From assembly GCA_020073485.1 (NCBI GenBank), contig JAIQFB010000003.1:124001-188000 (forward strand): a stretch of 64,000 bases of DNA. The letters run 5' to 3'. The position numbers were made by a program, and so were the translations under genes. Below, one piece after another: positions 61,630 to 64,000 of this stretch; positions within the stretch are counted from its first letter, which is position 1; the number at the start of each line of letters is the position of its first letter. The DNA comes from Terriglobia bacterium. Lineage in GTDB: Bacteria > Acidobacteriota > Terriglobia > Acidiferrales > UBA7541. Under the pieces are notes generated by a model. The model was not told where the DNA came from, did no database searches, and was given only the letters and a program-made list of their open reading frames with translations.

Positions 61630-61745
61630 CGTTCAGCGCAAAAGTAGAGCCCAGACTATTTACTGATGGGCTCTCCTTCCCGCGTCAGAACAAGCAAGTA
61701 GAGCCCAGACTTTCTCGCGCTGGGCTCCAAGTAGAGCCCAGACCC
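61630..61745. repeat. Tandem/dispersed AGAGCCCAGA repeat upstream of a zinc-ribbon gene
   Basis: CGTTCAGCGCAAAA at 61629-61642 is followed by three copies of TAGAGCCCAGAC-type units (61645, 61703, 61733), one paired with GGGCTC copies to form short hairpins (for example GGGCTCCAAGTAGAGCCC). The same first block and AGAGCCC units recur at 38489-38560. A related GGCTCCAAGCGGAGCC hairpin is found inside the fluoride riboswitch arm. Region 61577-61844 holds no gene. Confidence 0.7.
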
Positions 61746-62225: not shown

Positions 62226-62292
62226 GTTTGCTGCCGCGGAACAAGCGGGATTCAAATCAAGTTGACTTTTTTTGGCCTCGCCGTAGGATGAG

Positions 62293-62390
62293 AAAGGCGA
62301 TGGAGTTCGCCTCACAACCGCTGTCCTTAAATGGGGCAGGCTCCAAGCGGAGCCCACACCCGGTAGTCCGGACAGATGATGACTCCTGAC
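62293..62390 (+). promoter_or_regulatory. Fluoride riboswitch (crcB motif) aptamer
   Basis: The 5' part GGCGATGGAGTTCGCC (62296-62311) with ACAACCGC, and the 3' part GATGATGACTCCT (62375-62387), match the two conserved halves of the fluoride aptamer, including the P1/P2 hairpin and the TGATGACTCCT pseudoknot strand. The closing stem between them pairs CTGTCC (62321-62326) with GGACAG (62370-62375). The arm they enclose is long and contains the hairpin GGCTCC-AAGC-GGAGCC (62339-62354). It lies about 180 bases upstream of crcB, the known target of this riboswitch, so the assignment is strong. Fluoride binding should raise expression of crcB and the DUF190 genes. Confidence 0.9.
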
Positions 62391-62410
62391 AAGGACCTTG
62401 TCGCGGAGTC
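62381..62410 (+). promoter_or_regulatory. Expression-platform hairpin overlapping the aptamer
   Basis: GACTCC (62381-62386), the last conserved aptamer strand, can pair with GGAGTC (62405-62410), with the inner palindrome GACAAGG/CCTTGTC (62388-62402). This competes with the ligand-bound fold, as a switching hairpin should. No T-run follows, so termination would have to be rho-dependent or the effect lie elsewhere. Confidence 0.55.
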
Positions 62411-62568
62411 ATGCATCCGGCAACGATCCTTGAAGAAATGAGTCACCGAAGAGTTTGCCAGCACCGGGCGAAATTTGCGTCCTTGTGATGATTTTTATTT
62501 GCGGTTCAGAATCGGTTCCCAAAGACTCGCAACCGGAAGACAAGAATTAAAGATAGCGAGAACTCGAG

Positions 62569-62946
62569 ATGAATAAATACTGGGTAGTCGGCTTGGGGGG
62601 ATTCATCGGCGCCATCGCGCGATTCTGGCTGGGCGGCTATATTAGCAACCGGATGGGGACTCGCTTCCCATACGGGACGTTTGTGATTAACATTTCCGGG
62701 TCATTCCTGATCGGACTGGTGGTCACTCTACTGGCGGAGAGAACCCACTGGAACGCGAACTGGCGTTATCTGATCCCCATCGGATTCATTGGCGCCTACA
62801 CGACATTTTCGACATTCGAGTTGGAGACATTCCAGTCGTTCCGGGATGGTGAGCTTTTGTTCGCATTCCTGAATGTAATTCTAAGCGTTACGATCGGGTT
62901 CATCGCGGTCTGGTTGGGCGTGGTCACGGGGCGCAGCATCGGATGA
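62569..62946 (+). CDS. crcB: Fluoride channel CrcB/FluC
   Basis: 125 residues with four membrane segments. Family motifs: GGFIGAIARFWLGG, GTFVINISGSFLIGLV and GFIGAYTTFSTFELE, all intact, including the Asn of the pore and the Phe box. It exports fluoride passively as a dual-topology dimer. The fluoride riboswitch upstream supports the assignment. One copy only, so a homodimer. Confidence 0.96.
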   Translation: MNKYWVVGLGGFIGAIARFWLGGYISNRMGTRFPYGTFVINISGSFLIGLVVTLLAERTHWNANWRYLIPIGFIGAYTTFSTFELETFQSFRDGELLFAFLNVILSVTIGFIAVWLGVVTGRSIG

Positions 62947-63058
62947 TTGCCGACACGCCCATGCTGTGCGCCTCACAGCGCCCCGGCAGCGGGGTTTGCC
63001 GGGCAAGTTTTCCAGAACCTAGTTCGCGCCATCTCGACCGTGAAATTTAGGAGGGAAA

Positions 63059-63793
63059 ATGCTCAGAGCGGGGCCGGCCAGGAAAGTGACTATTTCCGTG
63101 GGCGAGGACCAGCAGTACCACGGTCACGCTCTATACGCCGCTATTCTGGACTTTCTGTTTTATCGGGGCGTTGCAGGCGCCACGGTGGTTCGCGGCATCG
63201 CCGGATTCGGCGCTGACCACAAGATGCACACGACGCGAATCCTGCGGCTTACTGAAAATCTGCCCGTCAAGATCGAGTTCATCGAATCGCCCGAGAAATG
63301 CGACGAAGTCCTCCCGAAGCTCCACGAAATGGTTGGATCGGGCTTGATCGAAGTACAGGAAACGCTGATCGTCAAGCCCGAAGAGACCCCTTCCAAGAGC
63401 GGGCCGCAGGCGCCCTTGCTGCCTGCCAGGCGGGAAGGGAAAGCGAAGTTGATGCGCATTTACATCGGCGAAAACGACAAGTGGCACGACAAGCCGTTGT
63501 ACCAGGCCCTGGTGGAAAGTTTGCGGGCCAACGATATTGCTGGAGTGACCGTTTACCAGGGAATTCTAGGCTATGGCGCCAACCGAAGAATTCATCAGCA
63601 GACGGCTTTAAATCTTTCTCACGACCGCCCCATCATGCTCTCGATTATTGAGATCGAAGAGAAGCTGCGCGCGTTCTTCCCTGTTTTGGATGACATGGTG
63701 AAACAGGGGCTTGTGGTCCTCTCCGACGTGGACATCATCAAGTACTCGCCCGAGATCCCGCCGGCCAGAACCGGGAAAGAGGCCGCGAAATGA
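63059..63793 (+). CDS. Tandem DUF190-domain protein (PII/CutA-like fold)
   Basis: 244 residues with AGGAGGG just before the ATG. Two DUF190 copies: about residues 8-105 (VTISVGEDQQYHGHALYAAILDFLFYRGVAGATVVRGIAGFG) and about 130-230 (MRIYIGENDKWHDKPLYQALVESLRANDIAGVTVYQGILGYG), joined by a short Lys/Pro linker. DUF190 domains fold like PII proteins and are often encoded beside crcB. It is 112 bases downstream of crcB and its stop overlaps the next DUF190 gene by 4 bases. It may sense or respond to fluoride or a nucleotide; the role is not established. Confidence 0.88.
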   Translation: MLRAGPARKVTISVGEDQQYHGHALYAAILDFLFYRGVAGATVVRGIAGFGADHKMHTTRILRLTENLPVKIEFIESPEKCDEVLPKLHEMVGSGLIEVQETLIVKPEETPSKSGPQAPLLPARREGKAKLMRIYIGENDKWHDKPLYQALVESLRANDIAGVTVYQGILGYGANRRIHQQTALNLSHDRPIMLSIIEIEEKLRAFFPVLDDMVKQGLVVLSDVDIIKYSPEIPPARTGKEAAK

Positions 63794-64000
63794 AACTGGA
63801 AGGGAAAGCCAAAATGGTACGTATCCATTTTGGAGAAAATGACACCTGGAGCGAAAAACCGCTCTACCGGGCCATCGTGGAAAAATGCAGGGAGCTGGAT
63901 ATTGCGGGTGCAACGGTGTTTCGCGGGATTGAAGGGTATGGCGCCAGCACATTGATCCACCGGTCGCATCTGTTGTCGTTTTCTTCCGATGCGCCGGTCA
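63790..64000 (+). CDS. DUF190-domain protein, partial at the right edge
   Basis: At least 70 residues, starting ATGA-overlapped with the previous gene. MVRIHFGENDTWSEKPLYRAIVEKCRELDIAGATVFRGIEGYGASTLIHRS repeats the DUF190 motif set (ENDxWxxKPLYxA, DIAGxTVxxGIxGYG). It is a third DUF190 unit in the fluoride-riboswitch operon. The end is outside the window. Confidence 0.88.
   Translation, partial: MKLEGKAKMVRIHFGENDTWSEKPLYRAIVEKCRELDIAGATVFRGIEGYGASTLIHRSHLLSFSSDAPV

Follow-up and report, generated by a model that had tools for sequence, protein, structure and literature searches.

In a soil acidobacterium, a fluoride riboswitch heads a row of genes encoding, in order, the fluoride channel CrcB, a protein with two DUF190 domains, a protein with one DUF190 domain and a dynamin-like GTPase (DLP). 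We give about even odds (roughly 50%) to the reading that this row is a fluoride-inducible detoxification operon made up of the riboswitch, CrcB, a PII-like DUF190 hetero-assembly of a two-domain and a one-domain chain (2+1), and the DLP. Fluoride likely induces the channel, the PII-like hetero-assembly and the membrane GTPase, although we infer their biochemical roles; the most cautious interpretation is that of a fluoride-inducible operon with products (a channel, a PII-like regulator and a membrane GTPase) that act at or near the membrane. The DNA analysed, referred to below as the window, is a 64 kb stretch (G000:C31:124001-188000) of a 5.05 Mb genome in 46 contigs, the nearest named matches of which are Terriglobia and Candidatus Acidiferrales metagenome genomes. 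The first-pass annotation had placed the gene cluster at 62293-64000; the features it described are present, but the aptamer begins slightly upstream of that interval and the row of genes continues past its end into the DLP gene (Table 1).

Table 1. Features of the riboswitch-headed gene row, in window coordinates
Feature	Position	Strand	Basis or detail
Sigma-70-like promoter candidate, TTGACT-16-TAGGAT	62262-62289	+	consensus scan
Fluoride riboswitch aptamer, RF01734	62287-62395	+	Rfam covariance match
Anti-aptamer hairpin	62379-62412	+	fold and covariation among relatives
crcB, fluoride channel (Fluc), 125 aa	62569-62946	+	profile matches
Ribosome-binding site AGGAGG, for the two-domain DUF190 gene	63049-63054	+	seen in sequence
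Two-domain DUF190 (PII-like) protein, 244 aa	63059-63793	+	domain 1 63083-63361, domain 2 63446-63736
One-domain DUF190 protein (domain 3), 111 aa	63790-64125, cut by the window at 64000	+	DUF190 profile
DLP, 618 aa	64184-66040 in window-equivalent numbering (L004:8185-10041), outside the window		Dynamin_N profile

A fluoride aptamer had been proposed to precede crcB, and the Rfam covariance search bears this out, with a forward-strand match to RF01734 that scores 41.2 bits against a gathering threshold of 34 and covers positions 1-64 of the 64 in the model. This is the only Rfam match within the 64 kb and the only fluoride riboswitch detected in the genome; our model R1, the E-values of which are rough, scores the same aptamer at 54 bits. 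The crcB gene starts 174 bases 3' of the aptamer on the same strand. At 109 bases, compared with approximately 60-90 in most relatives, the aptamer is unusually long owing to some 45 bases, an additional hairpin among them, that separate the two strands of its second helix (insert at 62322-62374, with its own hairpin GGCTCC-AAGC-GGAGCC). The promoter candidate directly upstream is the sole one in 4 kb around the operon, and is weak evidence since 1.7 such sites would be expected by chance. No forward terminator-like site was found by the consensus scan of the same 4 kb.

Conserved aptamer sequence ATGACTCC can pair with GGAGTCAT to form an anti-aptamer hairpin that competes with the aptamer, such that ATGACTCCT, the conserved 3' strand of the aptamer, doubles as the 5' arm of this long hairpin. 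In the 35 relatives that share the same platform type, to which this comparison was restricted, 96% of cells across the 14 pairs are paired, versus at most 56% for slid-partner controls, and one pair changes in a compensatory manner from A-U to G-C in 16 sequences. Among 66 relatives of all platform types, the minimum-energy fold sequesters the ATGACTCCT strand in 54, as against 42% of shuffled sequences. The full-length model match together with the covarying hairpin rules out an artefactual riboswitch. Terminators composed of a hairpin and a U-tract are frequent in fluoride riboswitches, and are not a defining requirement. Here, no T-run follows the hairpin, and by the test used only 4 of the 66 relatives have one; therefore, the platform is not a textbook intrinsic terminator, and it may instead work through factor-dependent termination, a paused complex or control of translation. 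Judging from the riboswitch family, fluoride would putatively switch the operon on in this organism. The operon shares its aptamer family and crcB target with known riboswitch-crcB operons, and in both a competing stem makes use of an aptamer strand (crcB RNA motif RF01734; Weinberg 2010, PMC2864571; Baker 2012). It differs from them by the addition of the 2+1 DUF190 pair and the DLP, and by a competing hairpin without a U-tract.

The crcB product matches Pfam CRCB with 103.5 bits and NCBIfam TIGR00494 with 107.9 bits (cut-off 80.45), carries the motifs GGFIGAIARF, TFSTF and the Asn of VINISGSF, and is present as a single copy in the genome. It is separated by 112 bases, containing a clear ribosome-binding site, from the two-domain DUF190 gene. 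As the first-pass annotation had described, a second DUF190 gene follows with an overlap of 4 bases, its start lying inside the preceding stop codon (ATGA). The annotation had counted at least three DUF190 (PF02641) domains; there are exactly three in the genome, all in this operon, each matched over the full domain with 105-121 bits (domain 3, 121 bits). No additional copy of the riboswitch, of crcB or of a DUF190 gene was detected in the rest of the genome, including the next 11 kb. The DLP reading frame begins 58 bases past the last DUF190 stop codon, at an uncertain TTG or GTG start, and folding places a hairpin in this gap of at least 58 bases. Therefore, the DLP may be expressed separately, and a single transcript running through to it is putative. 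Elsewhere in the window, the region 61640-61745, upstream of a queF gene on the minus strand, contains AGTAGAGCCCAGAC three times as well as GGGCTC segments in inverted orientation.

What had been taken for an array of three domains does contain three, but it is not a loose array; rather, it is a conserved 2+1 gene pair followed by the DLP. Using the two-domain protein as the query, we collected 80 named loci, 79 of which are labelled acidobacterial, with a same-strand riboswitch upstream in 64 of the 80. Domain 3 is a separate downstream gene, mostly with an ATGA overlap, in all 79 assessable loci (one being cut by a contig end), and none of the 79 has a natural fusion of all three domains; the choice of query partly accounts for domains 1 and 2 being fused at these loci, but not for domain 3 being present and separate. 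In a tree of 112 domains, domains 1, 2 and 3 and the single-domain proteins fall into four separate, strongly supported groups (100/100 for domain 1, 100/97 for domain 2 and 100/96 for domain 3), indicating that every one of the three positions is maintained in its own right, and the loop motif differs from group to group (GFGADHH, YGANRR and EGYGAST). Separate groups with their own loop motifs fit one assembly with three different seats, and the three domains appear to be three old lineages in a conserved 2+1 gene pair. The strongest competing explanation is gene dosage, whereby each chain would form homotrimers of its own with overlapping roles. Relatives with one or two DUF190 domains do exist, as this would allow; yet a distinct clade and conserved loop motif for every position, and a domain 3 that is present and separate in 79/79 loci, argue against it, and we regard dosage as unlikely while still the most serious rival. 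A relative from another class (L136) has the gene order 1+2, and four other loci (L139-L142) have solely the two-domain gene; thus, three domains are not always needed and the 2+1 rule is not universal. Together with the riboswitch, the conserved pair gives DUF190 a concrete and testable context.

A Foldseek search with the predicted model returned 2dcl and 1o51 first, followed by the PII-like proteins CPII and SbtB, and the DUF190 protein also has a weak P-II match in Pfam. In the AlphaFold model built from 77 sequences two PII-like domains fold, but their mutual packing is not fixed (single chain, pTM 0.43); a model from 11 sequences reached a pLDDT of 58. The predicted loops are of low confidence where PII proteins have the T-loop. 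TM0021 (1o51) and PH1503 (2dcl), which are DUF190/COG1993/UPF0166 proteins, share family and fold at approximately 35% identity, but these solved proteins are single-domain, whereas here two domains are fused and the third is encoded by a separate, coupled gene. SbtB-SbtA and GlnK-AmtB are similar in having a PII-like fold and a gene located beside that of an ion-transport protein. SbtB and GlnK are homotrimers with known ligands and a known target, unlike the putative hetero-assembly of DUF190 chains here. By analogy, the action of SbtB on its neighbouring anion transporter SbtA provides a model for the role of DUF190 (PMC8352866).

The DLP gene product matches Dynamin_N with 100 bits, retains intact G1, G3 and G4 motifs (GQFKRGKS, DTPG and NKAD) and has, as a possible membrane-binding paddle, one hydrophobic stretch at residues 483-501 that is weaker in relatives. 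Its best solved relatives are the bacterial dynamin-like proteins 5owv, 2j68 and IniA (6j72). Of 40 full DLP matches in the order, 37 have a fluoride riboswitch, crcB or DUF190 no more than 5 kb away. For 25 of the 46 DLP matches in the phylum sample, a fluoride riboswitch precedes the gene on the same strand at a distance of at most 1.2 kb, with a chance expectation of approximately 1e-4 per gene; for 10 more, one is found within 12 kb. At the level of genomes, 31 of the 36 that carry a DLP show the linkage and 32 contain a fluoride riboswitch (Fisher p = 3e-13, with kinship ignored). The DLP is also found as a lone gene behind a riboswitch in genomes of other families (L144-L147 and L151-L153), and was undetected in three genomes with the three-domain DUF190 array. 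These data suggest that DLPs take part in the fluoride response widely across the phylum, a role that has gone unrecognised. The triggers of bacterial dynamins are poorly known, and their placement under fluoride riboswitches connects them with a defined chemical cue and suggests that the membrane is one of the targets of fluoride stress.

Nostoc BDLP (2j68), Campylobacter jejuni DLP1/2 (5owv), IniA (6j72) and Bacillus subtilis DynA share Dynamin_N and intact GTPase motifs with the present DLPs, and in both sets several paralogues often occur in a row. The present DLPs differ in being under fluoride riboswitches, a control that we did not find for the known bacterial DLPs in the literature searched. 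We found nothing relevant on dynamin with fluoride or riboswitches in the literature searched, which did not include Baker 2012, the main source on genes under fluoride riboswitches; the word dynamin is absent from PMC11139923, and dynamin is unmentioned in the crcB-motif passages of PMC2864571 and PMC7266159. DynA, a bacterial dynamin in membrane surveillance, offers an analogy for the DLP (PMC8844932).

Under the detoxification reading favoured here, a rise in cytosolic fluoride would allow the aptamer to capture the ATGACTCCT strand, otherwise held in the anti-aptamer hairpin, and the operon would then be expressed, with CrcB serving as the fluoride exit route. The two DUF190 chains are translationally coupled and so, we propose, would be made in about equal numbers; they could form one PII-type ring in which three non-equivalent domains make a built-in heterotrimer. 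This ring might respond to the adenine-nucleotide or energy state and regulate its membrane partners in the operon, in the manner of SbtB with SbtA, and the DLP may tether or repair the inner membrane under fluoride/HF and acid stress. A wider proposal, that DLPs constitute a core riboswitch-controlled arm of fluoride resistance across Acidobacteriota, with a three-seat DUF190 ring coupling energy state to export and membrane protection, is put forward tentatively, and on balance we doubt it somewhat more than we credit it.

In relatives, these genes are clustered into islands, and a single genome may have as many as 13 fluoride riboswitches; a recurring order is riboswitch, DLP, riboswitch, DLP, crcB, a 201-aa protein, a two-domain DUF190, a DUF190, an AAA ATPase and a DLP, flanked by enolase, MutS-like pairs, a hydrogenase-type complex, a Na+/H+ exchanger and UspA; the genome of the window has a short form of this order. 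Methylobacterium DM4 and S. cattleya are known multi-riboswitch fluoride genomes (PMC11139923), and the relatives resemble them in the extent of riboswitch-based fluoride regulation per genome, but differ in that their riboswitches are clustered in islands around DLPs, DUF190, enolase, MutS-like and hydrogenase-type genes. Island gene content raises the alternative of target replacement, according to which the regulon mainly makes spare copies of Mg2+- or nucleotide-dependent enzymes inhibited by fluoride complexes (enolase, MetK, MutS-like, DnaB-like and the DLP NTPases), DUF190 is a bystander and the DLP is simply one more NTPase. Enolase, MetK, MutS_V pairs, DnaB_C, HolA and metallophosphoesterases do occur among the island riboswitches, and enolase and pyrophosphatase are known to be associated with fluoride riboswitches (PMC11139923). 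Nevertheless, there is no sign of the DLPs replacing housekeeping copies, nearly all DLPs of the order being in the fluoride regulon, and DUF190 is not known to catalyse anything that would need replacing, making target replacement rather improbable as an account of the operon.

The islands (L037-L055) list further candidate fluoride targets, namely MetK, HolA, a DnaB-like protein, a cyclopropane synthase and the unnamed 201-aa family. The island at G046:C163 (L037/L038), for example, has 9 riboswitches in 50 kb, together with DLPs, MutS-like pairs, enolase, DnaB-like, HolA, cyclopropane-fatty-acid synthase, a hydrogenase-type membrane complex and MetK. The 201-aa protein (L037:14324-14926 and homologues, cluster C4) is conserved between crcB and the DUF190 genes and has no Pfam match. 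DUF6062 segments are present in one type of island DLP and in L041:866-1669. At L149 (G297:C49), two divergent fluoride riboswitches are approximately 240 bases apart, with a DLP and an ATPase on one side and a DLP and enolase on the other.

DUF190 is a widespread family for which, to our knowledge, no role is established, and we found nothing relevant in the literature on DUF190 with crcB or fluoride. The suggestion that DUF190 is more than a chance neighbour of crcB is upheld by gene linkage, given here as raw counts in which kinship is ignored: crcB is no more than 2 kb away for 71 of 77 DUF190 loci in 95 genomes of the order and for 81 of 102 in a sample of 297 genomes from the phylum, and a riboswitch is found within 1.5 kb of 58 of the 77 crcB genes in the order. 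Many of the surveyed genomes are fragmented metagenome bins, and the 80 named loci overlap with these genomes (L058 is G062:C7, for example), so that the survey of named loci and the genome survey are not independent. The crcB-DUF190 pair is also found on plasmids of Streptomyces, Methylocystis and Chroococcidiopsis. Fluoride-type operons that lack crcB carry DUF190 beside a Na+/H+ exchanger and UspA (L137 and L142), and a second, divergent DUF190 group adjoins RND (CzcA-type) metal-efflux genes (L157 and L159). Therefore, the family is not fluoride-specific and CrcB cannot be its sole partner; the RND loci suggest a general role beside ion exporters, and a PII-like protein neighbouring ion exporters is the common theme of DUF190 loci. 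Riboswitch-headed operons, with or without crcB, support DUF190 being tied to the fluoride response; the role of effector or sensor that the first-pass annotation suggested for it is putative. Its target could conceivably be the DLP or the AAA ATPase and not CrcB, as the array adjoins a DLP at many loci and one locus (L143) reads riboswitch, DLP, DUF190 and ATPase with no crcB; most DUF190 loci, on the other hand, are crcB-DUF190 pairs in genomes without a DLP, so the DLP cannot be a general partner, and we consider such a target decidedly improbable. A chance grouping of functionally unrelated genes, for which nothing speaks except the short intergenic distances usual in bacteria, is contradicted by the order and phylum surveys and can be discounted almost entirely. 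On the Streptomyces plasmid pFRL5 (L155, 2513-3716), DUF190 lies between two CrcB genes in the order crcB-DUF190-crcB, with 4-base overlaps.
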